The notes below the pieces were generated by a model. It ran no database searches, was not told the origin of the DNA, and saw only the letters and a list, made by a program, of their open reading frames with translations. A stretch of DNA of 64,000 bases, taken from the NCBI RefSeq assembly GCF_026151205.1, contig NC_087073.1, positions 13,225,837 to 13,289,836 on the forward strand, given 5' to 3'. Made by a program: the position numbers and the translations under genes. Position 1 is the stretch's first letter; each line of letters starts with the position of its first letter. Positions 8,079 through 47,996 of the stretch are shown here, one piece after another. Origin of the DNA: Bolinopsis microptera (lineage: Eukaryota; Ctenophora; Tentaculata; Lobata; Bolinopsidae).

Positions 8079-11000
8079 TCAGAACGTGCTGTTAACAGTA
8101 CAAACATAAGTTTCTGGAGGAGCTGAAGGCTGACTAACAGACCTTATCCCCTCTGACACCCCACCCTGTATCACACCCCGGGGATCACACACCCCCTCCC
8201 CTGCAACATATCTCTCAAACTCTGAGTGGGTCACACCCTCTAGGTCACGTGTCACCAGCTGCTCCAGAGCCAGAGCAAATGCGTTAAACTGTTCGTGTGT
8301 GTCCAGCTCCTTCTGGAAACTGTCGCGCTCACAGAGGAGTATGCAGAGGGAGCTGAGACCGTTGAGGAAGATGGCGAAGTAGAGGCGGGAGTAGCTGAAT
8401 GTTGGTTCACTTAGTAATACCTGTGAGGGGGACAGGGTTTTAAGTGTACGGTAAAACCCCGATTTACCGCAAACTCCGATTTACCGTGGCTGTTTCTTTT
8501 TCCCAACGTCCGCAGTAAATCGTGGTATTACTGAATTTGCTTAGTCAGACTGTTCGTTAACATTTCAGTAGGAGAACAAATACTGTGGACACTTAAAATT
8601 AAGTAACATATAACACATGATAAAGGTAGGTCTACAATCTACATTCTACAGGCACCCTAGGCTGCATACCTTGGCGTCCTTCATCCGCTCATACCACCAG
8701 GACTGATAAGCGTACGACTTCCTGATCCTGCCTGACCAGTAGTCTACTAGACCTGGGTCTATCTGATCATAGTAGGAAGCGTCCGTCTCCACCTCACCAT
8801 CAGGCCCTAGGTGTGCTAGTACTGGTCTTTGCTCTACCTGTTGGATGCGTTTATTATTATTATTAATCAACTATATACAGCAAACACAAGATAATAGGAA
8901 ATAAATCATAAAATCGAGTGGCCGAGTAGTCTCGACTCACCCATAGCTTCTCCATAAGCGTCTATCATGAGCTTTGTACACTAAATCGTTGAAATTACTT
9001 AAACTAAATCTTTTATTTACAATCACAATAATATTCTTCGTCATAATGTCTTTTAATAATAAATCAAATAAATTTGAACGAGGTCTGCCCCTCCTTCCTT
9101 TGTAGTCAAGACATCCTAAACATGCAAATCTAAAAGATAAGAAAGCGGGAGTGTCATCACCGCTTCTGAGAACGTGCCCAAGCATCTTCCATCGTGCTTT
9201 CTTGATCCTTTCAGTAAGGGGACTGACATTACATCTCTTATATAAGTTCTCGTTACTGATAACCGTAGGCCAATAGGTGTTGATTATCTGTCTCAGATGC
9301 TTTCTTTGAAGAACGTCGACAGATGCCATTACGGTTTCAGGAGCAGCCCAGCTGCTACAGTTATACAACAACACTGAAGTGACAAGAGCTTCGTACAACT
9401 TCAGCTTTCTACTCTCACTGATCTGAACAGAACTATTCAACCAGACTTTCTTGTAGGTGTAGAAGGCAACATTGGCTTTGTTGCGTCTGTTGACAATATC
9501 TCTTTCTGAACAGAGCTTTGATCCTAATAGCACTGACTCTCGCCACTCTTCATTTCCTCTGATTTTATTGCCATGGGCATCCAAAGCATCTGTCTCTGCC
9601 AAATACACTCTTGTAAACACCGTCTTTGATTCGTTAACAAAGAGGCTCCAGTCCTTTAGTATGTCACTGGCAATCTCTAGTATCTTCACCAGACTCTGAC
9701 CATCTTCACTCAGAAGCTCAGCATCGTCAGCATAGGCGGACTCTAACGGGAGGCCTCTATCAGAGACTGGGGGGTTTGGTCTAGGAATTGTGACACTGAT
9801 CACGGCTCTGATGTGATTCAGGGCACCGGCAAGGGTCAATGTAAACACTTTACCTGCCAGACTGTCTCCCTGGTAAGCTCCAATATTAATCACGAATTCA
9901 CCAGACTCAGCTCTGTTGACCGTCACCTTGAGCTTTGTATTTGAGAGGAGGTACTGAACCAGGCGAATGTCGTCTCTAGAGCATCCTGCATCAATGAGGA
10001 GGTTGATGATGGTCTGTCTGCGGATGGTATTAAACGCAGCGGTCATGTCAATGTTGATTTTACTATACTCAAACTCGCGCCTGGTAACCACTGATGTCAA
10101 CATTCTCTGAGACCAAACCAGGTCAGCACAACTGCGACCCTGCTTGTATGCCACCTGCCAAGGTCCAGTGTACATATCAACGTGGTAATTGATTCTGTTC
10201 AAGGCTACGAGGGATAGGACTTTTCGAGTTCCATTTAGCAATGTGAGGGGCCGGATAGACTTTACCGGACCTCGGGGTTTTCCTGGCTTCTGAAGGGGTG
10301 TCAGGATACCTTCTCCAATAGCTGAGATGTATGTGTTGGTCTCAAAGGAGAGATTGTAGATCCTAGCCAACTCATAGTGGAGGGGATATCCAGCAGCTTT
10401 CATTAGCTCATTAGGTATACCGTCAGGGCCACACGCTCTACCGGATTTCAGCTTCATAACAGCACGGCCAACTTCTTCAGGTGTTATGGGACAGAGGAGG
10501 CTTCCAGGAGGGTCTATGAATGCTGGGAGGTGGGGTTCATCTTTGTCATTGAACTCATTATTAAAGTATTCTTTAATAGCTTCTGCTTTTAATGAGTCAG
10601 ATCCTAAGGTGTTGCCGTCTGCATCGTGGACAGTCACTCCATCTTTCTTCATCCTACACTGGGCCAAAGTTCTATTCGCTTCAAACATGCTTCTGCAGCT
10701 GTCGGTGTTGTTGATGACATCTACTAGGGCGTTAGCAGTGGCCTCGTTGATAGATTTCAACCTCTTTTTGATGGTACGTTTGAGATGGTTGATTCTTTTT
10801 CTGAGGTCACTCCTGTCACTTATCCCTGTGAGGCTACATTCTTGCTGAAGGGACTTTCTCTCTGCTGAAAGTTTAACGACAGTTGGATCGTCGCTGTACT
10901 GATGAGGCTTCCCCGGGGGCACTTTACCAACCACCTGGACGGCACATTTACTCAATATACCAAAAATATCAGAATTTTCAGAAATAGCATTATTAGTTAA

Positions 11001-13772
11001 AACTCTACAATCAATATCACTTTTAAAAGAATCAAAAAATTTAGACTTAATATCAGAATCATTAAGGCGATTGACATCAAACCTTATTTTGTCAGACTTA
11101 GGCCGCTTATGTACAATGTATTCACAACCAAGTTTAAAACGTGCGACCACAGGTTTATGGTCAGATTTCACAAAATCACCGCAAAAAGAGCGGGAGTCTG
11201 TTAAACAGACTTTAAAGTTAGTACGACATAAAATATAATCAATTTGTTTAAAATAGTTCACAGTGTCTTTTGAACCCTTGGGTCTGCCCTTGGGAACACA
11301 TCTAGCCTTCCAGGTGGTAATATACTTCGCTCTGTGTTGGAACGCAGTATTGCACGCAAACAGACCATTATCAACAATAAAGTCCAGTAGAAACTCACCG
11401 TTCCTGTTTCTCAGACCATTACCGAACTGACCAATATGATTATTAAGGCCAGCATCATACTCTTTCCTACTGCATCTCCCAAGTCGGGCATTAAAATCTC
11501 CAGCAACAAACAAATCGTACCGAGCTGGGATATTGATAGCAGTTTTCAGATCATTGAAATATGATTGTAACAATGGGGAGTTACCTGTGACCTTACTGAT
11601 GTCATCATCGACAATCTTCTTGGTTGGTCCGTATACGTTAACGATCCTGATCCTACGATGAGATCCGTTGGGTTCTGTGAGTCTTATATCAATGAAAGCC
11701 ACTCTGTTACTAAGTGATCTCCATGCAACGATAGAAGGTACAAGGACTGGGCAGATTAGAAAACCGAGACCATAATGATACCAATTGTCTGATTGTGCTA
11801 GTGTTACAAGTTTGTGACCGTCAATAATTGTTTCCTCGAAGTCTCGGCATTTTGTCTCTTGGAGACATACTACATCGAAATGATAACGTTTAGCGTCACT
11901 TACTAAATGTTCTCTCCTAAGAATGTTACCTTTAATACCATTGAGGTTCCAACTTGAAATGTTCAGAGTCGAAGACATCGGCATAAGGAGAAGTAAGGTG
12001 AGCAAAAGGTAGACTTCTAGCGAGCACGTCTGTTACAACTGCCATTCTGCTAGTGGGGGGCGTCACTCCATTCCATCCTGACTATGCGTTTATAAAGCCA
12101 CTAAAGTAAACAAACCTTGTAAACTCTATTTGTCCGTGTAATTTCTTTTTGACTTTGAAACCTTGATGTCAATCAATGACATACATTATAATTATTTGAA
12201 CTGTAGATTACAGATTATGATAATTGATATGAAATCATTTCAAATCCCATAAAAACTCCATAAAACCCCGTAAAACCCCAGGAACCCCCCCCCCCCCCCC
12301 CCCCCACGTACTTGTTTATCCTCCACTGTGTAAGTAAACCTACTGAGAGGTACCGCATATTTCTTAATAAAACGTGTTAGCCCCAACATGGACACCTGAT
12401 GAACTGGGGCGCTGAAATAAAACGTCAGTCGAACTGTTGCGAGATAATGGTCTAAGTGGTGTAAAACCTTTGTTTGGGAGATGATTTTTAGTTATCAGAG
12501 CTATCAATATTTGAGAAACACCAAAATTTATCGGGGTTTTCAGAGCTATCAAATTGTGTCAAGCAACCCGTTTTTATGTTAGCGATCAGGTTTTATCAAA
12601 CTTCTTTAACATGAAACAAATTATGCATTATTCTATTGACTTACCAGACAAAGTTAAAGTAATGTTTGATAAAGAAGGTCATGTAACCGTACTCCAACCA
12701 CGACTCATCTGACACGGAAGGTTGTGACATCTCACTGCTGGCTAACAGGTACAGATGTTTGTCCATCTCTTGATCACCTCTCACCCGGTAGAAAGCTTCT
12801 GTGAACTTCTCCGCGTAACAACAGTCCAGTATCAGGACTATCCTCCGACAGTCTGACTTTGAAAACCATTTGTAGAAGTGCCTAGCTGAGATACCTGTCC
12901 CGTGGGTGTCCTCCATTCTGAAACCAGAGGTATTTTAAAGACTTTAGATTAATGATTGCTGTAAAGTGTATAGTTCTTTTGTTGTTTTTATAGGAGAAGC
13001 TTGACGTGAAGCCAAAATAGTTGTGAACGTAACCAGGAAAAGAAGAAGAAAAAAGGTTTAATAAATGCAATAGGAATACCTGAAGTCCTGTGGAACAAGA
13101 TAGTGCTCATCCTGAACAGTGTGTCCGTGACCGCTATAGTATATCAGGACCATGTCCTCCCTTTTTGTCGTCTTCAGTGCGTCCTTCACTGCCTTCCTGA
13201 TATTTTCCCTGGTCGGACGTTTTCTGTGTGAAGTGAGGAGCTTTACCCGACTTGGCTTCATGCCAAGATGTAATCTGCATATATCGGACATGACAGTGGC
13301 GTCGTTTTCTGGCGCTTTTCCAACAGAGTCCAGAGGAAGGTTATCCTGGGTTGATACCCCAACTATAACCGCATAGTCTGTCTTAGCTGGTGAAAGATAC
13401 GAGTTTAAACAAATCTGCAAGTATTTAGACTACGAGCTGTTTGAGTGCAAACAATGTGTCGGGGATTGAGAAAATTAATAATAGAAAATGAGAATGCTAG
13501 AAAATTAGACTTATAACCTGGTGCTAATAAATAATTATCATCTCAATTCTAATCTTCATTACGATTAACCTACCTATCTTGTGCCTAATATCGTTTTCTG
13601 CGGTCTCCCCAAAGCGCCCAGCTCCAGGTTCCAACAGAGTACGGAGGTTGCTGAACTTTATCACTAAATCCTGGAACTGTTTTCCTTTGTCATCGTCTGA
13701 GTCTAATTTCGAAAAGTCACCATACCCAGCATCTTCCACTGACATCGTCCTCAACACCTCCTCCACCGACAT
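8079..13772 (-). CDS. caspase/metacaspase-like cysteine protease (C14 p20-type), 6 exons
   Basis: Exons in transcript order: 13772-13574, 13386-13080, 12917-12645, 12342-12312 (31-bp microexon), 8837-8670, 8420-8079; phases join to 439 aa. Residues about 70-260 form a caspase-fold domain: DYAVIVGV first strand, catalytic His153 in YYSGHGH, and catalytic Cys202 in LILDCCYA. The DxC context and the SGHG box match metacaspase or prokaryotic-type C14 proteins; animal caspases have QACRG instead. The domain closes with RFTYTVEDKQ joined to VEQRPVLAH. The following about 170 residues match no domain I know. The start is the first ATG after an in-frame TAG; the peptide opens with a doubled MSVEE/MSVED motif. 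For exon 4, splicing to the tempting upstream ttattaag would create TGA, so the ctctcag acceptor is required. Intron 4 carries a complete LINE. Confidence 0.78.
8845..8854. repeat. target-site duplication, 3' side of RTE LINE
   Basis: atgcgtttat, identical to 12084-12093. It lies only 8-17 bp upstream (in gene sense) of the splice acceptor whose AG is at 8839-8838. Confidence 0.85.
8855..12083 (-). mobile_element. full-length RTE-clade-like LINE inserted in a metacaspase-like gene intron
   Basis: The 3,229-bp element is read on the minus strand. It is flanked by identical 10-bp copies of atgcgtttat (plus-strand reading), carries one long EN-RT frame and has a short 3' region ending in an AAT-type tail rather than poly(A). 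Size, single ORF and microsatellite tail are typical of the RTE clade. The intact frame and perfect target duplication indicate a recent insertion. The element lies in the same transcriptional orientation as its host gene. Confidence 0.85.
8937..11984 (-). CDS. RTE-like LINE polyprotein: endonuclease and reverse transcriptase
   Basis: An intact frame of 1,015 aa from the first ATG (11984). The N-terminus is an apurinic-type endonuclease (EEP fold): SSWNLNGIKGN, LQETKC, GDFNARLG and SDHKPVVARF. A central linker leads to a reverse transcriptase with FNTIRRQTI, GAYQGDSLAG and the catalytic YADDAELL at about residue 750. The C-terminal part (LLYNCSSWAAPE, KKARWKMLGHVLRS) is usual for LINEs. It nicks target DNA and reverse-transcribes its own RNA there. 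No ORF1 precedes it. The upstream codons are open, but TTG would be needed to start earlier. No frameshift or internal stop is seen, so it may be a source-competent copy. Confidence 0.9.
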   Translation of the reverse strand: MPMSSTLNISSWNLNGIKGNILRREHLVSDAKRYHFDVVCLQETKCRDFEETIIDGHKLVTLAQSDNWYHYGLGFLICPVLVPSIVAWRSLSNRVAFIDIRLTEPNGSHRRIRIVNVYGPTKKIVDDDISKVTGNSPLLQSYFNDLKTAINIPARYDLFVAGDFNARLGRCSRKEYDAGLNNHIGQFGNGLRNRNGEFLLDFIVDNGLFACNTAFQHRAKYITTWKARCVPKGRPKGSKDTVNYFKQIDYILCRTNFKVCLTDSRSFCGDFVKSDHKPVVARFKLGCEYIVHKRPKSDKIRFDVNRLNDSDIKSKFFDSFKSDIDCRVLTNNAISENSDIFGILSKCAVQVVGKVPPGKPHQYSDDPTVVKLSAERKSLQQECSLTGISDRSDLRKRINHLKRTIKKRLKSINEATANALVDVINNTDSCRSMFEANRTLAQCRMKKDGVTVHDADGNTLGSDSLKAEAIKEYFNNEFNDKDEPHLPAFIDPPGSLLCPITPEEVGRAVMKLKSGRACGPDGIPNELMKAAGYPLHYELARIYNLSFETNTYISAIGEGILTPLQKPGKPRGPVKSIRPLTLLNGTRKVLSLVALNRINYHVDMYTGPWQVAYKQGRSCADLVWSQRMLTSVVTRREFEYSKINIDMTAAFNTIRRQTIINLLIDAGCSRDDIRLVQYLLSNTKLKVTVNRAESGEFVINIGAYQGDSLAGKVFTLTLAGALNHIRAVISVTIPRPNPPVSDRGLPLESAYADDAELLSEDGQSLVKILEIASDILKDWSLFVNESKTVFTRVYLAETDALDAHGNKIRGNEEWRESVLLGSKLCSERDIVNRRNKANVAFYTYKKVWLNSSVQISESRKLKLYEALVTSVLLYNCSSWAAPETVMASVDVLQRKHLRQIINTYWPTVISNENLYKRCNVSPLTERIKKARWKMLGHVLRSGDDTPAFLSFRFACLGCLDYKGRRGRPRSNLFDLLLKDIMTKNIIVIVNKRFSLSNFNDLVYKAHDRRLWRSYG
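12084..12093. repeat. target-site duplication, 5' side of RTE LINE
   Basis: atgcgtttat, identical to 8845-8854; marks the 5' boundary of the element and implies that it is not 5'-truncated. Confidence 0.85.
12285..12305. repeat. poly-C tract
   Basis: 21 consecutive C (G on the gene strand) just after the exon 4 donor of the metacaspase-like gene. Such tracts are prone to length variation and can form G-rich RNA structure in the intron. Confidence 0.95.
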
Positions 13773-21223: not shown

Positions 21224-21644
21224 TTAGTCTCTCAGCATCTGGACTCCAGAACCTTTTTGTTCTTGATCTTCGTGGTTAAAATAGCCGGCTTGTCGCTTGC
21301 TACGATTAAACAACCAAACTTGATCTTCTTCACTGTGAAAGTAGCCCGCTTGACGCTTCGCTAGTTTATTATTCTCTGCTTCTTCTTCCTCCTGCTCAAA
21401 GTATCCGACCTGCCTCTTTGCCAGGGTGTTAGAACTGTTTGCTTCCTCCTTCTTCCCTGAAAATCATTGCAAAGCGTTTAGTTTAGTTAAGCTCACGACA
21501 AGTTCCCGCCTGATAGTGATTGATTTTCATATTAACATTCAAATTGTTAGTTGTACCATCTGATATTTTGTGCATTGGTGTCGCCAGTGTGGTCTCCACC
21601 AGAAGTATAAGCAGAACTGCTGACGTGATCGCTCTTTTAGCCAT
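21224..21644 (-). CDS. putative neuropeptide or secreted-peptide precursor with three KR-bounded QxGYF peptides
   Basis: Two exons, 21644-21497 and 21456-21224, joined at C/gtgagc...ttttcag/GG, give 126 aa. Residues 1-23 (MAKRAITSAVLLILLVETTL...) are a signal peptide. Exon 2 contains LAKR, LAKR and SKR sites at residues 61-64, 81-84 and 102-104, each followed directly by Gln: Q65-VGYF, Q85-AGYF and Q105-AGYF. The peptides are spaced exactly 20 residues apart, with acidic spacers (EQEEEEAENN, HSEEDQ). This layout (signal, repeated dibasic cleavage, conserved peptide heads, acidic linkers) is that of a neuropeptide prohormone. N-terminal Gln would probably cyclise to pyroglutamate. No amidation Gly precedes KR, so conservation is at the N-terminal end. 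I do not recognise the family. An AG immediately before the ATG region (ttaaacag/agcATG) suggests a spliced 5' leader. Confidence 0.72.
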
Positions 21645-22241
21645 GCTCTGTTTAAAAGATGTATTTATTACCTGCTTGCATGTATAAGATATATTTTGTA
21701 TTCGCGCTATTCGCTTAAAATGAGTAGGAGGGTTAAAGCGTTTAATAAAGTTGAATAAAGCAGTATACTTGAACACAAGCAAATTATCGACCAATCTAGA
21801 AACATCAGAAAGAAAAATATAAATATCGTTCACTCTCAGTATTCAAACAAGGTGGGTCGCCCCATCAGGCGGCATGATTCTTTGCATTACCAGCATCTCA
21901 CTGCATTATGTACCACCACTAATGACCAATCAAACCATTATGAATATAATGATAGTAATTATGCTGTTTTCTCTAACTATTAAGAAATGAGAATCGAGTT
22001 TTATTCATTTATCATTATGCTAATTTGGTAACTCGGTAATGGCCCTATGCACGGTCCCAACACTAACAGTAAAAGACATCAGTGGAACGGTTAGCACACA
22101 GTCGGTCCGTGCACAGTTTGTGTACTCACCCGACTCCTATCGTGAGGCCTATAATTAAGAGTTAACAATCAGTGAACCCGCAATCCATTGCTGACTCTAC
22201 TTCTACAAGTTCCAACCTTCACCCTCCAACTACTCTTACAA

Positions 22242-25936: not shown

Positions 25937-27706
25937 ATGCGACGAAATTCTACACCTAATACCTCTACACCTACATCATCCCAGAGGAAGAAACTAGCTT
26001 CTAAAGCTGCTTCTGAGTCAATCGCTGACTCAGAAGCACCTTCTACCGGTATGTTGGGGCTTGGGGTGTCAGGGAATTACACGTTTGCAGCAACAACATG
26101 CCTTCACTTGTTAAGCTTACTGCCTGCTCCCGATTTAGATTTTGAGTTCGAAAGACTCCGCCTCCTTTCGAAAAGTGCTACTAAAGCAAGCACAACGGAC
26201 AACAAAATTTCTTTTTTAAGGAAACATTTATTAGGCCAATGTGCCCTAGACGCTGACGAGACAATGAACAAATTAACTGCGAGTCTAAAACTCATTTCAT
26301 GTACCGTTAATGAAGAGGTTGAGAAGGCGGTCAACAGCATCACGGAACGAGCCTGCACTGCGATCCAGGAAGTCTCTGAAGAGTCCAGGAAGCAGACCTC
26401 TCTCATCGTTGAAGCAGCTAGCAGTAGTTCTCCACAGACTCTCTCCCCTTCCGGTGAAGTAGAAAGCATACCTAACCCACCACCTCCGGTAAGATTTTTG
26501 GACTGTGACTTTGGTGATCTTTCTTTTGATGAAATCTACCGCGAGCTTGACTTTAACATGAAACACCCGGGGGGCCGTTCAACGTCATATTTTGGCTCGG
26601 TACCTTACAGTTATGGCAGAACCAACCACCGTGCAACCCATGATAAGCCCTTGCCACCTGTCCTAAAGCGCATTTTTGATTGTTTGCATGAATCCGATCC
26701 TGACTTTACTCCCACGAACTATACCTGCCTCTGTACTTACTATAAGGACGGGTCAGTTGGTATTCCATTGCATAGTGACAGCGAATCCAGCATTGTTGAA
26801 GATAGTCTGATTTACACTGCATCATTTGGCTCTACCAGAATTATGAGAATGTCAACGTCGACAGGCCCTTTCGTTGAGCATAACATCCCGCTTGAGCACG
26901 GCTCTGTCTTTGCAATGTCTCGATCTGATCAGAACCACTGGCAGCACGGCATTGAACGTGATCCTATGCTAAGGCAGCCACGAATCTCGCTCACTCTTCG
27001 CAAGTTGAAACAGCCTGATCCCACGGCCTTACCAGCACCTGCAGCCCCTACTCGGGTCCCGCCTGTTGCACCACCTACACAGATACAGTCACCAGCGTCC
27101 CGTCACTCCAGAGTCCTCTTAATTCACGACTCAATACACCGAGAAACGCCAGAATGGCTGTTCGACCAGATACCTGGCCACCGATGTCAAAAGCGCCTTA
27201 ACTATCAACTAGTGAACTCACTGGAACATCAACATGAGTTCAAACATTCTAAAGCAGTCGTACTTTCCTGCGGCATTAATGACCTAGCTAGGTATGGGCA
27301 GTCGGCCAGGAGTCTTGCGGACAATTTCTGTCCCCGTTTTATAGACTCTTGTAACAATAACAAGAATACCGAGTTTATGTTTTGTGCTTTATCTATGACT
27401 AAATTTAACTGGTTGAATGCAGAGATTGACGCTTTTAATATCATAATGTTGAACCTGGCTAAGGATATTCCAAATCTGAGTTTTTTCGATGCCCATGCCG
27501 TGATCAAGCGTGCTAACTCATACTACGTATGGGACCGCAACGACAGACATGGCATCCACTTATATCACGAGGTGCAAAGGGTAGTGGCACATGAACTTGT
27601 TAACTGCGTTGGCAAGTTATGTGGATCTGAACAGAGACGTCACAGGAACTGTGAGTGGCTCTATCACCACAAGCCTAACAGTCTCTCCAGATATAACCGA
27701 AGCTGA
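25937..27706 (+). CDS. LINE ORF1: AlkB-like 2OG-Fe(II) dioxygenase fused to SGNH hydrolase
   Basis: 589 aa. Residues 1-180 are Ser/Thr-rich and helical, a probable assembly or RNA-binding region. Residues about 185-357 match the AlkB fold: a NYTC...YKDGSVGIPL strand, the iron-binding H279-S-D281 pair, H337 in HWQHGIE, and the 2OG-binding arginines in R349-ISLTLR355. A Pro-rich linker (361-388) leads to an SGNH/GDSL-type hydrolase at about 390-555: HDS in block I (LLIHDSI), GIND in block III (446-449), and D536-R-H538 in the last block. SGNH esterase domains are known in CR1-type ORF1; an AlkB domain with a full set of ligands is unusual. It might repair alkylated or methylated RNA or DNA of the element, but that is inference. 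Confidence 0.82.
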   Translation: MRRNSTPNTSTPTSSQRKKLASKAASESIADSEAPSTGMLGLGVSGNYTFAATTCLHLLSLLPAPDLDFEFERLRLLSKSATKASTTDNKISFLRKHLLGQCALDADETMNKLTASLKLISCTVNEEVEKAVNSITERACTAIQEVSEESRKQTSLIVEAASSSSPQTLSPSGEVESIPNPPPPVRFLDCDFGDLSFDEIYRELDFNMKHPGGRSTSYFGSVPYSYGRTNHRATHDKPLPPVLKRIFDCLHESDPDFTPTNYTCLCTYYKDGSVGIPLHSDSESSIVEDSLIYTASFGSTRIMRMSTSTGPFVEHNIPLEHGSVFAMSRSDQNHWQHGIERDPMLRQPRISLTLRKLKQPDPTALPAPAAPTRVPPVAPPTQIQSPASRHSRVLLIHDSIHRETPEWLFDQIPGHRCQKRLNYQLVNSLEHQHEFKHSKAVVLSCGINDLARYGQSARSLADNFCPRFIDSCNNNKNTEFMFCALSMTKFNWLNAEIDAFNIIMLNLAKDIPNLSFFDAHAVIKRANSYYVWDRNDRHGIHLYHEVQRVVAHELVNCVGKLCGSEQRRHRNCEWLYHHKPNSLSRYNRS

Positions 27707-28348: not shown

Positions 28349-31300
28349 ATGGAACCCACTGTTACATCTGAAAATAAAGTCAAGATCAAATGTTCAAGCT
28401 GCAGCGGCTGGTGTTACTCTATTAGAAATATTCGCACATGCTCATGGTGTCAAAGTAATGTCCATGTCAAATGTTTTAAGGATAATTTAGGCTGTACAAG
28501 TTGCTGTGAAAGTATCATTCCTGGATTTCACGCAACCTACTATGAAATCTATGACGACTACAGTAAACTTAATAGTGACATATTTAATCCGTACGATCAG
28601 AATAGTCGATTTAATCTTATTGGCGACGCCATGACCAACGAAGAGCATCAAGATTCAACTTGGAGCAATATTTCATCTTTCCTAACTAGTTGTCAGTATA
28701 AACAGCAACGTAACGTGAAAAAATCTACCTGCTCTCAACTTAAAACATTTTCTATGAACATAAGATCCCTTATTAAGAATATAGATCAACTACGTGATGA
28801 TATTGAGACTTATGATAAGTATGATATATTGTGTTTTAACGAAACTAATTGCACTTTAGGGAAATTACCGAACGGAATAAACGACGTTACCTTAGATGGA
28901 TTTCATGAACCATTTATCCAGGATCCAATTCGCCCATCTGGAAAAGGTGGGGGGCTAGCCACTTATGTACACAAACGTGTAGTCGATTATGATAAAATTG
29001 ATATTTTCACTCCAAACCCTGAACCAACTAATACTAGTGGCGAATTTCAATTTATCAAGCTCCATCAGTGCAAAGGATACAACAGAACGAAAATAATTGG
29101 CAATGTTTACCGTTCTCCCGCTAGGAGACCTGAAGCGTTTCTAGAAATTTTCAAAAATACGCTGCACAACCTAGGGAGACACACCCGTAAACATATGACG
29201 CTTCATGGAGATTTCAACCTTGATTTACTGAAGCACAGCAGCGACCAAGCATGTCAGAACATTATAGATATTGCGTCCTCTTACGGTTTTATTCAAATTG
29301 TATCACGCCCAACTCGCCTAACGGACCATAGTGCCACGCTTATTGACCACATCTACACAAACAATCTTGAGGATACAATAAGCTGTAACGTCTTAACGAC
29401 AGATATGTCTGATCACTTAGCAATAGTCACTACAATAAATCTTGATAACACGCCAACCAGCAGCTACCGCTCTGCGTCTAACTCACAAAATGTATCTCAA
29501 ACTGAAACACGTAGATTTAACGACACCAACAATCAAAAATTCAGAGACTTAATTACAGATGAAAGTTGGTCAGAAATTTTTAACAATACCAATGATGCCA
29601 ACGAACAGTTCAATAATTTAAATACGGCTTATAATAAGATTTACGAGTCCGCCTATCCCACAAAAAGACAATCACGAAGACAAAATGAACGTGTTAATCC
29701 GAAACCATGGATGCTGCCCTGGCTCGAAGAAGCTATAGAACGTAAAAATGAGTCATATTATGATTTTGTTAAGGAACCATCTGATAGTAACCGCAGTAAA
29801 TATGACCGTCTGAAGAAGTTTTGTAATAAACACATCGATAAAGCTAAAAACAAGCACTTCAAAAAATTTTTTGAGCAAAACAAAGAAAATTCTAAGAAGC
29901 AGTGGCAAATGATAAACAGTCTTCTTAATAGGAAAAAATCTAAACCTACTTCAATTAAACTGACTGACGAAGACGGCTCAATCAGCACTCCGGCAGCTGT
30001 AGCAGAAAAATTTAACGATTACTTCTCAAACATCGCTCCTAAAATTAAGTCTGAAATTAGTAGTAGGACCACTTTTGATCCTGGTGGAACCCATAGCACA
30101 CTTCGCAACGCCACTCCAAGTAGTATTTACTTAAAGCCAGTCACTGCCACAGAAATTCAGGACGTCATAAACCTGCTTAAGAATAAAGCCACACTAGACA
30201 CTAAAATTGAACCTCTAAAAATCGCTAACAGCTGTCCCAGTTTTACTAGTGTACTAGCCCACGTTGTCAACAGTTCTTTTGAACAGGGGATCTTTCCACA
30301 GGCTTTGAAAGAAGCGAAGGTGGTCCCAATTCACAAAGGTGGATCTAAATCTGACATAAAAAATTACAGACCAATATCTCTTCTTGCTTCTTTCTCTAAA
30401 GTATTTGAAAAGCTAATGCATAACCGAGTTATAAGTTTTTTAGATAAATACAGCATACTATGTGAAAACCAATACGGTTTTCGCCCGGGTAGGTCTTGTG
30501 AACATGCTCTTCTCAACGCAAAAGACACCATTCTTAATTCAATGTCTAAAAAGCAGGTAACTTTACTTCTTTTAATCGATTTCAGCAAAGCTTTCGACCT
30601 TGTGGATCATTCCATACTCTTGCGCAAGCTGGACCATTACGGCATAAGGGGTCAAGCCTTAAACTGGTTTAAGTCATATCTCACTAACAGGAAACAGTTT
30701 GTATCAATTGGCTCGTCAAAATCTTCAACCAACCAAATTTTATACGGCGTGCCTCAAGGGTCAATATTAGGACCTTTACTTTTTATAATCTACATAAACG
30801 ACCTGCCTCAAATATCAGATATAGCCAATTTCATTATGTACGCAGATGATGCCAACATCTTCCTGATAGGAGAAAATCTTAATGAAGTTTACGATAAACT
30901 AATAACTCTTAGCGATGCTTTAGTTAAATGGGTAGATAATAATGGTTTAGCTCTCAACCTTAAGAAAACAAATTATATGATCTTCTCTCGACAAAGAAAT
31001 CTTAATTATCGTGATGTGGCAATTTCTGGTGTCACAATTGAGAGAAAAACAGAAGCCCGTTTTTTAGGAGTTATAATAGATGATAAACTAAACTGGTCCC
31101 ATCATATTTCTGCCATGAAAATGAAAATGTCCAGATACATAGGAGTCATGTACAAACTTAAAAAATATCTGCCTCTCGAAGCACGTCTTCAAATTTATCA
31201 AAGTTTTGTGCAGTCACACCTTAATTATTGCAGCCTTGTATGGGGTTTTGCTGCCAAGTCTCATATTGAATCGCTTTTTGTAAAACAGAAAATGGGCCTT

Positions 31301-31822
31301 CGAGCAGTATTACCTGGTTTCGTCAATTACTGGTACAAGGACGGTATCCCCCCAGCAAGTACCAAGTCTGGCTTTTATTCACATAAAATATTGACAGTAC
31401 ACAGTATCATTGTAAAGAACGCACTCATTTTAATGCATAAATTGAAAAACTTTCCTCATCTAGTACCATTGTCTCTCAAGAAAACAATTCCCAAAAGCGC
31501 ACCATTATTTAATACTAACCTGGATTCTATTCTCACTACACAATGGTCAGAAAAGTATGGTCAACACCCTTACAACAACTCAGTATTTTTTAAAGGTCCA
31601 TTATTAGCAATAAACCGATATAATGTTGCAGCAACTTCCCCGCCTAGTCTATTTAACCTGAACATTTACAAAACTTGTATAAAAACTATGCTCATCGATC
31701 AGCAAAATGAAAACATCGAAGACGATTGGCCTAATTTCATGTTATATTGTATAACAGGACTAAGAAAATCAAAGCGTAACATAAACCAAAATGCCGATAA
31801 TAACCTTGTCTCTACATCTTAG
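28349..31822 (+). CDS. LINE ORF2: zinc finger, endonuclease and reverse transcriptase (CR1-like)
   Basis: 1,157 aa with a proper ATG. Residues about 14-56 hold a PHD-like Cys-rich finger (CSSC, CSWC, H-x-x-C, CTSCC). Residues about 132-357 form the EEP endonuclease (MNIRSLIKN, NETNC, HGDFNLDLL, SDHLAIV). The reverse transcriptase follows with FRPGRSCEHALL, DFSKAFDLVDH, GVPQGSILGPLLF and catalytic YADDANIF at about 831. The C-terminus continues with the helical SLVWGFAAKSH type region. ORF1 stops 642 bp upstream, so the two proteins are translated separately. No stop or frameshift is seen, so the copy may be recent. Confidence 0.92.
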   Translation: MEPTVTSENKVKIKCSSCSGWCYSIRNIRTCSWCQSNVHVKCFKDNLGCTSCCESIIPGFHATYYEIYDDYSKLNSDIFNPYDQNSRFNLIGDAMTNEEHQDSTWSNISSFLTSCQYKQQRNVKKSTCSQLKTFSMNIRSLIKNIDQLRDDIETYDKYDILCFNETNCTLGKLPNGINDVTLDGFHEPFIQDPIRPSGKGGGLATYVHKRVVDYDKIDIFTPNPEPTNTSGEFQFIKLHQCKGYNRTKIIGNVYRSPARRPEAFLEIFKNTLHNLGRHTRKHMTLHGDFNLDLLKHSSDQACQNIIDIASSYGFIQIVSRPTRLTDHSATLIDHIYTNNLEDTISCNVLTTDMSDHLAIVTTINLDNTPTSSYRSASNSQNVSQTETRRFNDTNNQKFRDLITDESWSEIFNNTNDANEQFNNLNTAYNKIYESAYPTKRQSRRQNERVNPKPWMLPWLEEAIERKNESYYDFVKEPSDSNRSKYDRLKKFCNKHIDKAKNKHFKKFFEQNKENSKKQWQMINSLLNRKKSKPTSIKLTDEDGSISTPAAVAEKFNDYFSNIAPKIKSEISSRTTFDPGGTHSTLRNATPSSIYLKPVTATEIQDVINLLKNKATLDTKIEPLKIANSCPSFTSVLAHVVNSSFEQGIFPQALKEAKVVPIHKGGSKSDIKNYRPISLLASFSKVFEKLMHNRVISFLDKYSILCENQYGFRPGRSCEHALLNAKDTILNSMSKKQVTLLLLIDFSKAFDLVDHSILLRKLDHYGIRGQALNWFKSYLTNRKQFVSIGSSKSSTNQILYGVPQGSILGPLLFIIYINDLPQISDIANFIMYADDANIFLIGENLNEVYDKLITLSDALVKWVDNNGLALNLKKTNYMIFSRQRNLNYRDVAISGVTIERKTEARFLGVIIDDKLNWSHHISAMKMKMSRYIGVMYKLKKYLPLEARLQIYQSFVQSHLNYCSLVWGFAAKSHIESLFVKQKMGLRAVLPGFVNYWYKDGIPPASTKSGFYSHKILTVHSIIVKNALILMHKLKNFPHLVPLSLKKTIPKSAPLFNTNLDSILTTQWSEKYGQHPYNNSVFFKGPLLAINRYNVAATSPPSLFNLNIYKTCIKTMLIDQQNENIEDDWPNFMLYCITGLRKSKRNINQNADNNLVSTS

Positions 31823-36547: not shown

Positions 36548-39500
36548 CTCGATTCCAATCTGTCAAGGTTTGCTAGCAGTAGCACAGTCTGCTTCCTGGT
36601 ACCGGGTGGTAAATCTCGTGCTGATGGAGATGGCTCTGGCGGCTCAACACCAACTAATAAAAATGACTCTAGGGAATCCACGAACCAGGACGGGAAAAAC
36701 GGAAACGGAAGTGGAAACTCTATCTACAATGGAGGACAGGACTCCTCATCAAGCGGCCCCCAGGACAAAGGGGACAGTGATGATGACGACGACAACCCTA
36801 ACAAATCTGGTAGTGAATCTTTCAAAGATACCAGCTTCTCAACCGATCATGACAACAAGAATGAAGAATCTGAGGAATCAGATCCCGCAAGCAAAGAACC
36901 CGAAAGCTCCATTCCTTCTACGGAGACCCCAGAGGAAGAACTCCCGTCTCTGAATCAAGATAAGAACAACTTTCTCACGAGTACCTTGAGTTGTCCCGGA
37001 AAGCTCAACTTTGGACCCGAAGAATCAGAAGAAGACCTACGCCGCAGACTAACACCAACAGATGATCATCTCAACTTCTGTGATGAGATAACATCCGTCA
37101 GACGGCTGAATACGTTACCGATCATAACAGGGCTAAACGACCCCGTCATCAGAATGAGAAATCTCTCATCATCTCCAGGATACACCTTAGTCAGTCCAGG
37201 AGGTGACTCTGCCGAGCTTTGTCGTGACATATTCCACTGCAAATCTCTCTTCCCAACAGAGCCTGCGAATATCCTATACTGGTCGACAGACAGTGAAGTA
37301 TCCTTCAGGAAATATGGGATCCACCAACGGGAGTTTTGTCTGTTCAGCTCTCGTTACCACCCATGCAACTCATGGGACACATATGATGCCAAGGAGTTCA
37401 AGGAAGTGCCTATCCTACTTCAGTGCATGAATCAAATCATCAGCGATCATCGCATCGACGAGAACCCCTCACTCAACAGCTGTGTGGTCGAAAAGATCAG
37501 AATGAACGAACACACACCAGAATCAACGGTCTTCCCATCCGACCTTGATTCATACGCAGAGGACAACTCCGTAATGGTAATCCTCTGCCTGGGTCAACAG
37601 AATGCGATCGATGTTATACCCAAGTCACACTCCGGATCTTTGCGTGGTAAGGTAGATGCAGGAAGGCTGTCTCCGGATCATGGGGGAGCGGTTTTCTTGT
37701 CCAAAGATGCACTCAAACGCTACCAAGTCCGGTCAGGAGTAGGACTCAGTAACTCTCTAAATAACGATGCAAGACCATCCTACAGACTTATCTTCTTTCG
37801 CTCGAAAATAGATACTGACGGAACGTTGTTATGGGACAGTACCGATATTCCCAATGAGAGTATCAGATCATCAAGATTCTGCAATACCCTAAGTTACAGA
37901 ATGGGTCAAGTTCATATATACCAACAAATATTGGACAAGCTTACCCCAGCTGACTTTACTTTGATACTGGATGCCATGGATCAATCCACATCTAGTAGCG
38001 ACTCCCTGAACGATATGAAAACAAGAACAGAAACTCTCTTAGCAGACCCTTACTCACCCCCCAGCTATGCCGCTGTAAGTGTAATAGTAACTAAGATGAA
38101 ACTGAAAGACGCGAAAGAGGAGCTTACTGCATGTAACCAGGAAAATAATGGTGTTGTAGCCTTGTTAAGACAGAGACTATGCAGATACTTAACTAGGGAC
38201 TCAGACCAGTCATGCGACAAAAGTGGAGAGTTCTTATACTCCCCTGAACCGCCACTCTCTGAAACTGCCCCGGTTCCAAACAGCGTTGTATCTCCTACTG
38301 AGTTCTGTTTTACCAGCTCACTGCCCAACGCTAAGGATTTCCTGAGATCAAAACTGGATAAACACTCCTCTACACAGCAAGCATCCAAAACTAAGAGGAA
38401 AAGACAACCAGCTGACACCAAGACTGATCTAAGCTTTCAAGGACTTGAAACTTACATTAAATCACTCGAATCAGCTACAGAAAATGAACTCACAAAGGAG
38501 CTCGGATTCCTCAAACTGAGCAGTGAAGGAAGCTCAAAAATCAGAAAAAAGAGGATCACTCAACATTTGAAGAACCCTAATCAACTCTCCGCTGCTAGCA
38601 GCAGTGCTACATCTGAGCAACTCAACGATGTGCAGAATAGACTGGAAGTGATGGAAAGATCCAATGTGTCAATCAGCTCTATTCTTACTGAAATTAAAAA
38701 TGAGATGAAAGAGCTAAAGCTCACGATAACAGAAAAGACCTCTGGAGCCAAATCGACTGGAGACTGTCAAATAGCAAGAAATTGTTCAAGTGGCACTGAT
38801 CTCCTTAAAAGCCTGACAAAAGCTACCCAAGACACCAGTCTGCTCCTCGAAAAATCAGAAAAAGGTCTAAAAGGGCTGACACAAACCCTAAAAGACACTA
38901 TGACTGTAAAGAAAGATCTGGATGTCTGGCGTCAGAGCGTTTTCAAAAGGGAAGAGAGTGACAAAATCAACGAAATCCATAACATCATTTCGACCCCTAA
39001 TTTTCAAGAAATCCTCAGTATCAGCCAGTTAGACCCAGGTGCAAATTCTAGCCAAGACCATGTGAGACATATCCCCAGGTCTCCGGCTGACACGAGGACC
39101 AACAGGGACACCCCTGGGCTATCACCAAATCAGGGACGATCCTCCTACAGGAGAGAGGGTATAGAACCCAGACAGAGAGACAAGAGAACAGGTGTCTTCC
39201 GGGCAGATAGACCAAAAAGAGCAAGTAACCGGCCTGTTCCAAGCCAAAAGTTCACACACTCCTTTGAACAGCCTGAGTTCATCCAAAGAATCTCCCAGCT
39301 AACCAAAGATGCCGAATCCGCCCCAAAAACCCATGAGGCAGTCGAAGCACTGAATAGGCACATTACAGAACTTATAAATGATGCCGCTAAAAATGAGCTT
39401 GAAATCTCTAAACAGACCCAGAATCCAAAACCCAAGTTCGATTCATGGTTTGACGGCAAGTGTCACACCGCACGACGCCTCTTCAAGCGGTCAATAAAGA

Positions 39501-41923
39501 TTGTCGATAATAACCCTGACAATCAAAGGATCAAAGCTCGACACCGTGCTAACTGCAGAGGATATCGAAAGATTGTCAATAAGAAACGGGATGACTTCTT
39601 CAATAGTCTTAACAAAAAGATTAAAAACGGTAAAACCATATCCTGGAGAGACTTCAAAAAGCTTAAGAGCTACAAGAAGGAAGAAGTCCAAACTGACTCA
39701 GAGCAACTTAAAACCTTCCATCAGTTCTACGCTGAGCTCTACTCTGACACTCATCCAACTGTAGACTCTCTCACCAAAAGAGCTCTCCTCGAAGAAGCCA
39801 ACACCCTAGCCGAGGGATCTGCCCCCAATGAGTCGCTGAACAGCGCATTTACACTGGGTGAGCTGAACGCTGCACTAGGCAAACTAAAATCCGGCAAAGC
39901 ATCTGCTTTTGACCACATAAGCAATGAAATGCTCAAGGGTTTGAACGTGAAAATGAGGTCCCTCCTCCTTAAACTCTTCAATCTGTGCCTTGAGACAGGA
40001 ACCTACCTCTGGAGCAAAAGTGTGATCACACCGATTCACAAAAAAGGGTGCATCAGGAACCCTGACAACTATAGAGCAATAGCAGTATGTAGCTGTATTG
40101 GGAAACTGCTCTCCACGATGCTGCTATCTCGGCTTGTCACTCACCGCCAAATCTCTCATCCAGATCCACCTAATCAAGCAGGCTTTACCAAAGGAAGTCA
40201 ATGTAATGACCATATATTCACGCTGATGTCCACAATCGAAAAATACAAGAAAGTGAAAAGTAAAATATATGCAGTGTTCATTGATCTCCGAAAAGCGTTT
40301 GATCTAGTGTGCAGACAAGCCCTCCTGTTCAAACTAGCCTGCTATGGCGTCAACGGCGGCTACTACGACATCATCAAAGACATGTACAGTAAATCAGAGG
40401 GTCATATCAAGATGAATGGTAAAATCAGTGAAGCATTCAAGATCCTCAAAGGGACTGAACAAGGACATCCACTCAGCCCCGAGTTTTTCAAAGTCTACTT
40501 TAAAAAGCTTTCTGACCTCCTCAATGAAGCCGTTGTGAACTGCCCAACTCTCGCTGGTATCTCAGTGACTCACCTAGCGTGGGCTGATGATCTAGTAATC
40601 CTCGCCCTAGATCCTGAATCACTCCAAAAGTTGCTTTCGATCATTGGGGACTACTGTATCGAATGGGGTCTGGAAATCAACATCTCCAAAACCAAATTCA
40701 TGGTCTTCAACGGTAAAGGACCTGACATTCCAAACTGGCGTCCTTCTATTCATGACAGAGATATAGAGATGGTCTCCAGCTACTGCTATCTTGGAATCAT
40801 TATAAGCAGCACAGGGAAATTTCGGCAGGCAACTGACTCTCTCTACCGTAAGGGACTCGGAGCTTACTTTAGCTTGAGAAGCACCATAGACCGGAGATAC
40901 ATTGACGCATCATGCCTTAACAAACTATTTGACACCCTTGTCAAGCCTATTCTACTATACGGTTGTCAAGTTTGGGCCCCAGTTCTACCCACCGTCAGTA
41001 AGGTCCTCTCTTGCTTCAGCAAGTTTCACAACCTTGATCATGCAGTCTCCCACATCGCAAAACAGAAACTGGAGCAAGTGCACCTACGTCACCTCAAATA
41101 CCTTCTTGGTATTAACAGAAGGGCAGTCAATGCTACAGCCTGGGGAGAAACTGGCTCATACCCAATTATAATTGAGATGTTGAAACTGAGTACTAAATAC
41201 TTCAAAAGAGTTATGAGCCTTCCCTCAACACAACTGGTCAAAGCTGCAATGACTGAGCAGATTAACCTCAAATTGTCATGGTTTGTAGGCATCGAATCAG
41301 TTATCAAGTCATTTAACAACATCGACCTTCCTGACAGGAATTCATCATCGTTGCTCAACGCAACCTTCCTCGCGGACTCCTGCAGCCCTGGATTGATGAC
41401 AGAGAACCTGCGAAAACTATTCCGTGATTCCTGGGGTTCTCTTGTGAAAGATTCTAGAAAGCTATCATTCTACAGTGAAGTCAAAAAAGAATTTGGATGG
41501 GAGCCATATCTAAACCACGCTAGGTCTTTCCAGGACAGAAGGGCAACCACACAGATTCGGTCCAGTTCTCATCACCTTAGAATTGAAAGGGGGAGGTACG
41601 ACAAAACTCCACTTGATGAAAGGACCTGTAACTATTGCGAGCTGAACATCAACCAGCTAATCATCGAAGACGAGAACCATATGCTCCATTCCTGCCCCCT
41701 AGGGAAAGTTCCAAGGGACAGATTTCAAAGCCTCAGTGGAAATCTAGTCAGCATTGACGGAAATGGTAGCTTCAATCTTGCCTCCACGTTTATCTCGCAA
41801 CCCGATTGCATGGACAAACTCAGCGATGAGGACGTAAGTTTGATCAAACTCTCGACCAGCACCATTAATAAAATCTACAGACTAACCCTCAACTTCAAAG
41901 AAAGTCTAAATGTAAATAACTAG
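36548..41923 (+). CDS. LINE polyprotein: degenerate AlkB-like region, SAP-like motifs, reverse transcriptase, CCHC knuckle
   Basis: An open frame of 1,791 codons with no stop. No in-frame ATG occurs near its beginning, so the true start is missing or unusual. Residues 1-150 are acidic and Gly/Ser/Asn-rich. Residues about 240-417 align by order with the AlkB domain of the neighbouring LINE (NSCVVEKI, FPSDLDSYAEDNSVMVILCLG, GGAVFLS, RPSYRLIFFR). However, the iron-binding His of HxD reads Pro (P-S-D) and the distal His reads Val. Two SAP-like helix motifs lie near 516-550 (LKDAKEELTAC) and 631-675. A coiled and basic region leads to the RT (about 1108-1400; DLRKAFDLV, GTEQGHPLSPEFF, catalytic WADDLVIL near 1344). 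A CNYC...H-x4-C knuckle is at about 1694-1715. I see no EEP or REL endonuclease. Confidence 0.78.
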   Translation, partial: LDSNLSRFASSSTVCFLVPGGKSRADGDGSGGSTPTNKNDSRESTNQDGKNGNGSGNSIYNGGQDSSSSGPQDKGDSDDDDDNPNKSGSESFKDTSFSTDHDNKNEESEESDPASKEPESSIPSTETPEEELPSLNQDKNNFLTSTLSCPGKLNFGPEESEEDLRRRLTPTDDHLNFCDEITSVRRLNTLPIITGLNDPVIRMRNLSSSPGYTLVSPGGDSAELCRDIFHCKSLFPTEPANILYWSTDSEVSFRKYGIHQREFCLFSSRYHPCNSWDTYDAKEFKEVPILLQCMNQIISDHRIDENPSLNSCVVEKIRMNEHTPESTVFPSDLDSYAEDNSVMVILCLGQQNAIDVIPKSHSGSLRGKVDAGRLSPDHGGAVFLSKDALKRYQVRSGVGLSNSLNNDARPSYRLIFFRSKIDTDGTLLWDSTDIPNESIRSSRFCNTLSYRMGQVHIYQQILDKLTPADFTLILDAMDQSTSSSDSLNDMKTRTETLLADPYSPPSYAAVSVIVTKMKLKDAKEELTACNQENNGVVALLRQRLCRYLTRDSDQSCDKSGEFLYSPEPPLSETAPVPNSVVSPTEFCFTSSLPNAKDFLRSKLDKHSSTQQASKTKRKRQPADTKTDLSFQGLETYIKSLESATENELTKELGFLKLSSEGSSKIRKKRITQHLKNPNQLSAASSSATSEQLNDVQNRLEVMERSNVSISSILTEIKNEMKELKLTITEKTSGAKSTGDCQIARNCSSGTDLLKSLTKATQDTSLLLEKSEKGLKGLTQTLKDTMTVKKDLDVWRQSVFKREESDKINEIHNIISTPNFQEILSISQLDPGANSSQDHVRHIPRSPADTRTNRDTPGLSPNQGRSSYRREGIEPRQRDKRTGVFRADRPKRASNRPVPSQKFTHSFEQPEFIQRISQLTKDAESAPKTHEAVEALNRHITELINDAAKNELEISKQTQNPKPKFDSWFDGKCHTARRLFKRSIKIVDNNPDNQRIKARHRANCRGYRKIVNKKRDDFFNSLNKKIKNGKTISWRDFKKLKSYKKEEVQTDSEQLKTFHQFYAELYSDTHPTVDSLTKRALLEEANTLAEGSAPNESLNSAFTLGELNAALGKLKSGKASAFDHISNEMLKGLNVKMRSLLLKLFNLCLETGTYLWSKSVITPIHKKGCIRNPDNYRAIAVCSCIGKLLSTMLLSRLVTHRQISHPDPPNQAGFTKGSQCNDHIFTLMSTIEKYKKVKSKIYAVFIDLRKAFDLVCRQALLFKLACYGVNGGYYDIIKDMYSKSEGHIKMNGKISEAFKILKGTEQGHPLSPEFFKVYFKKLSDLLNEAVVNCPTLAGISVTHLAWADDLVILALDPESLQKLLSIIGDYCIEWGLEINISKTKFMVFNGKGPDIPNWRPSIHDRDIEMVSSYCYLGIIISSTGKFRQATDSLYRKGLGAYFSLRSTIDRRYIDASCLNKLFDTLVKPILLYGCQVWAPVLPTVSKVLSCFSKFHNLDHAVSHIAKQKLEQVHLRHLKYLLGINRRAVNATAWGETGSYPIIIEMLKLSTKYFKRVMSLPSTQLVKAAMTEQINLKLSWFVGIESVIKSFNNIDLPDRNSSSLLNATFLADSCSPGLMTENLRKLFRDSWGSLVKDSRKLSFYSEVKKEFGWEPYLNHARSFQDRRATTQIRSSSHHLRIERGRYDKTPLDERTCNYCELNINQLIIEDENHMLHSCPLGKVPRDRFQSLSGNLVSIDGNGSFNLASTFISQPDCMDKLSDEDVSLIKLSTSTINKIYRLTLNFKESLNVNN

Positions 41924-45399: not shown

Positions 45400-47996
45400 A
45401 TGCTATTCTTCCTAATAGGTCTGCTCGGCGGTTGCTGGGTAGCACAAGGAGAGAACATGAAAGACCAGGTCGATGAAGAGATCTTCAGACAAAGAATGAA
45501 AAGACAGATAATTGACGGAGTGAACGTCAGAGAACTCTACAAAGGTACCGTTGTTCACTACAAAGACCCTGATTTCGAGGCTGGTAAGAAAAGTTATCTC
45601 GATGCCTCTGCAACCGACCTCCTGAAAGATAAAAATCACTTCCGTGCTTTTAAGAAGAATGCTAAATTGGTCTTGGATCACAACTTGGAAAGTAATCTTG
45701 AGTGGGTTGCAACTATCAACCAATTTTCTTTGGAAACAGACGAAGAGTTCAGCCACCATTTAGGTGGGAACTTGACACGGCCGGTGGATGAAGAGATCTC
45801 TAGCTCTCCAAGAAAGAAAAGACAAGTAGATTTAGTAGTTGACAGATCCGTGATAGAAGAACTTGAAGCTAGAGACGTAGATTACACGCCATACCTCCCT
45901 CCCGTTAAGAACCAAGGGGCCTGTGGTTCATGCTGGGCATTCACAGCGACGGCAACACTTGAGTACCAGGTAAACAAAGACCGAACAGTCGGAGAAGAGA
46001 TGGTGGCTCTGTCGGAGCAGCAGTGTGTAGACTGCGCCCGTCATGGTAATGGGTGCGGGGGTGGTTGGCCTACTAGCGTTTACACGTGGGTACATAATCA
46101 TTACAGCCATTTTCCTTCGACTTACAACTACCCGTATGAAGCAGAAAATTCCTTGGAATGTAGAAACAATGACTACAAAAATGCGATATCGGGGTTTACA
46201 ATCTATGAAGTAAGTGGAGAATACATACTTACTGGTAATGATGAAGACCTTCTCGTTGCAGTGGGTAACAGCAAAATAGGCGTAATATCTACTTGCATCC
46301 AATTGGCATCTGATTTCACTTCTTACAGCGAAGGTGTATACTCAAGCGATGATTGCAACGATGGCGGTTCTGGCCACTGTGTGACCATAGTAGGGTATGG
46401 AAAATTGAACGGTGTCCCGTTCTGGAGGTTGCGGAACAGTTGGGGGCCAACATGGGGGGACGGGGGACACATCAACATGAAACGTGGAGTAAACGGTCAC
46501 AGCTTGAACATGTGCCAGGTTGCTAGTGATGCTCATTACCCGTACATTGAGGGGAGTGATGATGGACAAGGCAGTGGTACTGAAAGTGAAGCAATACGGT
46601 TGGATTGTGGGGACGGCAAGCAATTGGAATACAGGGGAGTCATCAATACAACTATTTCTGGGAGGGACTGTCAGAGATGGGACTCCCAAGAACCTCACTC
46701 GCACACCGCAAAACCAGAATTGCATCAATACAAGGGTCTTGAGGAGAACTACTGCAGGAATCCAGACAATGACGAAAGAGCCTGGTGTTACACAACGGAT
46801 TCTTCAGAACGATGGGAATACTGCAACGTTCCAGACTGTTCACTTGAAAAATGGTGTGAGCTCTTGGACTTTGAATACTCAGACAGACTACCAGGCAGCC
46901 AGGAGTATAAGACTAAGTATGAAGATTTGAACAGTGCTAAAAGCAACTGTTACTCAAATCCACTTTGCACCGGAATCTCAACATCCTCCGATGGTGCATT
47001 CACATTGATGGCAGGAGATCTCTCATTTAATAAGGGAAGTCATGTGTACAGCAAGGGACTTTGCAAACAGTTCACTCCCCCTCCTATCGGGGAATACTGC
47101 GAGATGGACAATGTGAAATTGATAAGCAAGATCGCGATGGCAACAGCTATCACACAACTGGAAGCTCAACAGATGTGCGACTTCCATGAAGAACTATGCG
47201 TGGGCGTGTCGGGGAGTGATGAACTTGGCTACAGCCTCCACAAGAACAAGGCATCTAGGGAAGACACTGCACAAACCACTTGGTTGAAAGGTGACTGTCC
47301 AGATCTGACCAAGTGCGGGTATGGGGATCAGGGAGACTATCGGGGGAACATCAGTGTAACAGCAGATGGGAAGACCTGTCAGCGGTGGGACTCCCAGACA
47401 CCTCATTCTCACGACAGAACCCCTGAGGAATACCCTGGTTATGGCTTGGAGGAAAATTACTGCCGAAATCCAGATGGTAATTATTCCCATGACCTTAAAT
47501 TGATTTTAGTGACTTACAAATTATATATGCCTGTAGTGAATTCCATCTAAAGCGCCGAAAGTACAACTTAAATTCTTACAAGTGCCCTAAAGGGTCGTTC
47601 ACATGTTACGTAATCAATAGTTAAGTAATTTTAACCCCCTCCCCCACCTCCGTAATCAACTGTTATTAAGAGCCAACCCCCCTCCTGACAGCAATATTAC
47701 TTAATCATGGCATGACCCCCCCCCCCCCTCCCCCCACACTAAAATATTGTCAAATTGTTATTATTGTAGAGAGTAAAAATAAAATTTTGATTACGTAATC
47801 AACAACCAAACACCCCCCCCCCCCCCCTCCCCTGTAATCAACCGTAAGCATTTGGAAACCCCCTCCCCCCTCGGCTGATTACGTAATATGTGAACGACCC
47901 CTAATACTTTATTTTACAGGAGATCCTACAGCTTGGTGTTACACGATGGACGCGAAGAGATATGCTGAATGTGATGTCCCAACCTGTGACGAGTAG
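45400..47996 (+). CDS. secreted papain-family cysteine protease with PAN/apple-like repeats and two kringles
   Basis: Exons 45400-47476 and 47920-47996 (G/gtaatt...ttacag/GA) give 717 aa. Signal peptide 1-17. The propeptide has an I29-like centre and two basic sites (RMKR near 35, RKKR at 138-141), so furin-type maturation is likely. The C1A domain (about 145-385) has oxyanion Gln172, Cys178 in GACGSCWAF, His326 in SGHCVTIVGYG and Asn346 in RNSWGPTWG. Kringle 1 spans C403-C480. C486-C555 and C567-C633 are two Cys-rich PAN/apple-like repeats. Kringle 2 spans C639-C715, its last part being encoded by exon 2. Kringles and apple-like modules bind proteins or glycans, so the enzyme is probably targeted to an extracellular matrix or surface ligand. 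A secreted digestive or defence role is possible. The first exon is unusually long for this gene neighbourhood. Confidence 0.9.
47590..47905. mobile_element. C-rich MITE in the kringle-protease intron
   Basis: The ends gggtcgttcacatgttacgtaatca and tgattacgtaatatgtgaacgaccc are inverted copies (shown here as positions 47590-47614 and 47880-47904). The inside is an irregular series of gtaatcaac separated by runs of C and CCCCCTC. The intron is little more than this element. No clear target duplication. Confidence 0.75.

Follow-up and report, generated by a model that had tools for sequence, protein, structure and literature searches.

A candidate ctenophore prohormone gene with three N-terminally conserved, non-amidated peptide units

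A minus-strand gene of the ctenophore Bolinopsis microptera, located at 21644-21224 of the 64-kb window (the whole stretch of DNA analysed here), probably encodes a small secreted multi-copy peptide prohormone, from which three non-amidated, probably pyroglutamated peptides would be released to serve, presumably, as transmitters or hormones. The gene is real, single-copy and probably functional, its three units being conserved at their N-terminal ends. It begins with an ATG at 21644 and ends with a stop codon at 21226-21224, and consists of a signal-peptide-like start, one intron and a repeat-bearing exon (Table 1). The units KRQVGYF, KRQAGYF and KRQAGYF recur with a period of exactly 20 residues, their KRQ sites falling at residues 43, 63 and 83 of the 106-residue form, and are separated by acidic spacers. 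This arrangement of three KR-Q[V/A]GYF sites had been described in a first-pass annotation, and every element of it is present in the sequence.

Gene layout and splice form

The first reading frame from the ATG encodes MAKRAITSAVLLILLVETTLATPMHKISD, while exon 2, including the Gly codon that the intron splits, reads GKKEEANSSNTLA-KRQVGYF-EQEEEEAENNKLA-KRQAGYF-HSEEDQVWLFNRS-KRQAGYF-NHEDQEQKGSGVQMLRD. A weak poly(A)-like AATATA follows the gene at 21184.

Table 1. Features of the candidate prohormone gene, in coordinates of the window.
Feature	Position	Strand	Basis or remark
Exon 1 of the favoured model (ATG, signal peptide, short leader): MAKRAITSAVLLILLVETTLATPMHKISD plus first base of Gly codon	21557..21644	-	Donor atgGTACAA at 21556, phase 1
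Signal-peptide-like region MAKRAITSAVLLILLVETTLA	21582..21644	-	Hydrophobicity and small-residue rules; predicted cut after TLA
Intron, 100 nt, GTACAA...TGATTTTCAG (alternative 40-nt form 21457-21496)	21457..21556	-	Splice pairing, actin introns
Exon 2 and stop codon; holds all three repeats	21224..21456	-	Sequence, reading frame
Unit 1, KRQVGYF	21398..21418	-	Pattern and codon alignment
Unit 2, KRQAGYF	21338..21358	-	Pattern and codon alignment
Unit 3, KRQAGYF, preceded by RS (RSKR)	21278..21298	-	Pattern and codon alignment
Predicted peptide 1, QVGYFEQEEEEAENNKLA	21359..21412	-	Putative cleavage at KR
Predicted peptide 2, QAGYFHSEEDQVWLFNRS	21299..21352	-	Putative cleavage at KR
Predicted peptide 3, QAGYFNHEDQEQKGSGVQMLRD	21227..21292	-	Putative cleavage at KR
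Acceptor-like CTTTTAAACAG, three bases upstream of ATG	21648..21658	-	Sequence; putative role

A single acceptor, TGATTTTCAG, with the intron ending at 21457, pairs in phase 1 with two donors that were compared here: atgGTACAA, giving a 100-nt intron and a product of 106 residues, and gtcGTGAGC, which carries C at position -1 and gives a 40-nt intron and 126 residues. Introns in six stretches of this genome that carry actin genes, all of one gene family, provided a yardstick. Nine of the 12 actin junctions tried could be resolved, as GT-AG, protein-consistent introns of 124, 125, 134, 185, 196, 198, 235, 252 and 301 nt; the 196-nt solution (L038) is a poor one (22/29 residues identical), and the set leaves out further inserts inside two actin tblastn matches. 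The remaining three junctions gave no GT-AG solution with a script that required the length to equal that of the reference actin. G occupies the donor -1 position in all nine resolved introns, one of which has a GTACAC donor, and their acceptors end in TTCAG in six cases and in ATCAG or TGCAG in the other three, a pattern that the acceptor of the candidate gene resembles.

Because the actin introns are long and without exception have G at -1, we favour the 100-nt intron and the 106-residue product; the model with a 40-nt intron and 126 residues is disfavoured on these sequence grounds and was set aside, the measured actin introns being at least 124 nt in nine of nine cases. Of the two exons and signal peptide in the first-pass annotation, the signal-like start and the in-phase exon pair are retained, whereas its 40-nt intron, with C at -1, and the 126-residue product that depends on it are probably wrong. 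Counting against our own model, the GTACAA donor is weak, and 100 nt, like 40 nt, is shorter than every one of the nine measured introns.

The favoured splice brings together the two parts of an interrupted Gly codon (21557 / 21456-21449, minus strand), creating D-G-K-K, a possible amidation site. It is conceivable that this G-K-K, which is separate from the three units and upstream of them, gives one extra amidated peptide, TPMHKISD-amide.

A set of simple signal-peptide rules is satisfied by one of the 2138 ATGs that the window contains on its two strands, namely the ATG of this gene, and six of the 2138 pass when a hydrophobic peak and 25 open codons are required. The rules are not a trained predictor, and as the candidate itself supplied the peak threshold, the value of 1/2138 is an estimate of rarity rather than an independent test. 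As ctenophore mRNAs frequently carry a trans-spliced leader, present on 56% of Hormiphora Iso-Seq reads according to the accessible part of PMC8527503, the acceptor-like CTTTTAAACAG before the ATG may be a spliced-leader or 5' UTR acceptor. The Hormiphora leader pattern, searched with 3 mismatches, matched 2 sites compared with 0 for the control, too few to define a leader set.

Conservation and uniqueness of the KRQxGYF cluster

Codon-by-codon alignment of the three units, the sole basis for judging selection and drawn from a single gene of a single genome, separates the motif from its surroundings. Within KRQxGYF the three pairs differ at 4, 5 and 3 codons, synonymously at 3, 4 and 3 of them (10 of 12 comparisons of differing codons), and the two non-synonymous comparisons are both V/A at position x. 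In the 13-codon spacers 12 codons differ in every pair, with 1, 1 and 0 synonymous (2 of 36). When the same number of base changes is placed at random, the probability of so few amino-acid changes in the motif is 0.0016, 0.0015 and 0.006 for the three pairs, values that share sequences and are not independent. Neither Tandem Repeats Finder nor a direct-repeat search reported the units as DNA repeats, and hence they are no young satellite. Taken with the synonymous pattern, this shows that repetition and conservation lie in the protein sequence rather than in the nucleotides: three units with dibasic bounds, 20 residues apart, are conserved while the spacers between them drift.

The KRQxGYF cluster is unique in the genome and beyond chance. 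A search of all 264.65 Mb (264,652,675 bases in 232 contigs, both strands) with the looser pattern K[R/S]QxGYF returned seven exact matches, three of them in this gene and within 141 bp, compared with three matches genome-wide for a backward control pattern. The other four sites, three with KS and one with KR, are isolated, and no second unit lies within 120 residues on either side of any of them in that frame. At the density of these four, the expected number of additional matches less than 200 nt from a given one is ~1.5e-6.

Neither could a paralogue of exon 2 be found by tblastn against the same genome at E 10, which returned, besides the locus, a single weak match (E 0.111); the latter is a minisatellite on C11 and was rejected. 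This other match, L003 (G000:C11:19860959-19864144), is a degenerate minisatellite whose translation repeats AKRGTRYFGRRRTR and mimics a peptide precursor. A 901-base DNA query matched its own genome once only, and hence no alternate haplotype copy is seen.

Predicted processing, rival readings and relatives

As judged from its sequence features, the 106-residue product would enter the secretory pathway by way of its signal peptide, and a furin/kexin-type convertase would then cut at the three KR sites. The genome does contain a furin-type convertase gene (L045, 590.8 bits to solved furin 1p8j), along with eight P-domain matches. The KR sites are preceded by LA, LA and RS, the last of these completing RSKR, which we take to be a furin-type site, and the final unit ends LRD-stop. 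N-terminal Gln, once exposed, would probably be cyclised to pyroglutamate, a modification named as a conserved feature in the accessible text of PMC9525235. The predicted products are three peptides, acidic and 18, 18 and 22 residues long, with the N-terminus pGlu-x-Gly-Tyr-Phe in common and a non-amidated C-terminus. No amidation Gly is found at any of the three motif peptides, as none of the KR sites is preceded by Gly; the earlier proposal that the units are conserved N-terminally, rather than as C-terminal amides, thus holds. The shared N-terminus appears to be kept by selection and is therefore the probable receptor-binding part, with the acidic tails perhaps serving as spacers or solubilising tails, and the peptides would most likely act as transmitters or hormones released from neurons or neurosecretory cells.

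Two points of biochemistry count against this reading. No clear glutaminyl cyclase was found: PF04389 (M28) gave four exon matches, none assignable to QPCT, in a search that can miss short exons. In addition, the ctenophore peptides kept by the survey in PMC9525235, as far as its available text describes them, form an amidated-only set, whereas the motif peptides have no amidation Gly. That survey identified mature peptides from 13 precursors by mass spectrometry of Bolinopsis mikado and retained the C-terminally amidated ones alone, and its authors expect non-amidated ctenophore peptides to await discovery.

The cut ends of the peptides are where a closely related alternative departs from the one we prefer. 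Conservation stops at Phe, with the first acidic residue 1, 3 and 3 positions further on, so the same prohormone might yield much shorter mature peptides, pGlu-x-Gly-Tyr-Phe alone or extended by one to two residues, after removal of the acidic stretch by acid-directed processing; this overlaps with the preferred reading and differs from it in the final product. However, acid-directed trimming mostly removes residues from the N-terminal side of a mature peptide, and the end of spacer 2, QVWLFNRS, has no acidic residue and would remain. We regard such shortening as rather unlikely, although mature peptides of Bolinopsis mikado and Nematostella are reported to be cut at acidic as well as basic sites, and acidic sites are described as major in Bolinopsis mikado (PMC9525235, accessible part).

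Layout alone does not distinguish a hormone from other convertase-processed secretions, and the same cuts could release a repeat peptide with no signalling role, such as a secretion of glands or colloblasts, a mucus component or a substance for host defence, for which strongly acidic spacers may suit granule packing. Against this, conservation is confined to a short stretch at the N-terminal end that follows KRQ, as might be expected of a receptor ligand, the 106-residue product contains no cysteines, and the predicted peptides have net charges of -5, -2 and -2, which sets them apart from most antimicrobial peptides. We consider a non-signalling product unlikely. A decayed or never-functional open frame, its motif repeats arising by chance or as a remnant, would accord with the weak donor, the single genome copy and the retroelement-rich neighbourhood, but is highly improbable given a cluster density far above chance, the synonymous pattern, and two exons that are both open, in phase and headed by a signal-peptide-like start. 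The prohormone of unrecognised family put forward in the first-pass annotation is therefore still the best reading, in view of the synonymous drift, the signal-like start, the KR sites, the convertase gene and the lack of a family, though not with the intron and length given there.

No family match appeared in the collections searched. The small, signal-led product of 106 residues matches no Pfam family at E 5 and no NCBIfam model, the latter being built for prokaryotes; exon 2 has no meaningful relative in the PDB, where three rows at E 0.89 are attributable to chance, and Rfam has no match in the window. None of the strings QAGYF, QVGYF, KRQAGYF, QSGYF and QGGYF occurs in the literature searched, which yielded only an unrelated string xgyf, although published precursor lists, which for candidates number 30 in Mnemiopsis and 72 in Pleurobrachia (PMC9525235, accessible part), may already include the gene. 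None of 7 candidate stretches in viral contigs and none of 141 in genome contigs was confirmed for KRQxGYF, these sets being without bearing on animals.

Three known peptide systems stand closest to the candidate. The amidated ctenophore precursors (NPWa, FGLa, RWFa, VWYa, WTGa, NVFa/NIFa, TFQa, LNSa and PARa; PMC9525235, as far as its available text goes) have in common with the candidate the phylum, a secreted precursor, cleavage at basic sites and nearby acidic residues, but were selected for an amidated C-terminus, whereas here, in a comparison made without alignment, the conserved part is N-terminal. Pedal peptide/orcokinin-type precursors similarly give rise to several peptides that are related, 13-18 residues long and shown with no amide in the available part of PMC5656890. 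That type, however, is bilaterian, and its starfish members carry a C-terminal DPLSAGFTD in three of five peptides, to which we see no resemblance; by eye, no DPLSAGF-like stretch is present in the 106 residues. Hydra LW-peptide A, for which contraction is reported (PMC12440616), is likewise a non-amidated peptide from a taxon-restricted precursor of a non-bilaterian and sets a precedent for activity without an amide, but differs in being cnidarian and of LW type. KRQxGYF is not described in the accessible portion of that report, and an informal comparison shows no sequence resemblance.

It is possible, though on balance doubtful, that ctenophores have a class of signalling peptides with pyroglutamate at a conserved N-terminus and never an amide, of which this gene would be the first clear example; the class would have been missed so far because the survey in PMC9525235, in its accessible text, kept amidated peptides only. 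If so, part of the diversification of ctenophore transmitters bypassed amidation. With N-terminal pyroGlu, the monoisotopic masses predicted from the gene are 2108.9174, 2194.9708 and 2519.1135 for the full forms and 595.2642 and 567.2329 for the pentapeptides, so the proposal of a non-amidated precursor can be tested directly in ctenophore extracts or existing raw spectra.

Neighbouring and other genome features

A long (ATAACC)n array extends from ~23330 to past 23500. On the plus strand, an ORF with an AlkB-type 2OG-Fe(II) oxygenase domain (25937-27706) is followed after ~640 bases by an endonuclease/reverse transcriptase ORF (28349-31822), a retroelement-like pair that may form one element. 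Two more long reverse transcriptase ORFs lie at 8937-12005 on the minus strand, also with an endonuclease domain, and at 36986-41923 on the plus strand. A 716-residue open frame at 45400-47550 (plus strand) encodes a papain-family protease with two kringle matches, the second of which seems cut at its 3' end, as by an intron. Six nearly full-length, single-frame actin genes are clustered at C10:11726819-11822979.

The genome gave no match to COX1 and none to GFP, for which the control was silent as well. Glutamate receptor domains gave 32 matches, of which eight loci were cut out and four compared with solved structures. Ten of the 32 lie in open frames of 904-989 residues, suggesting those genes have few or no introns. 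The single-frame receptor L014 is identical to the solved ML032222a ligand-binding domain at 188 of 260 positions (72%) and scores 407.5 bits to it, compared with 243.4 for the next molecule listed, which identifies the genome as a ctenophore's; ML gene identifiers denote Mnemiopsis leidyi, following usage in the available part of PMC9525235. L012 and L018 also have ML032222a first, the latter by a small margin (222.5 versus 219.3 bits), while for L011 kainate receptors come first.
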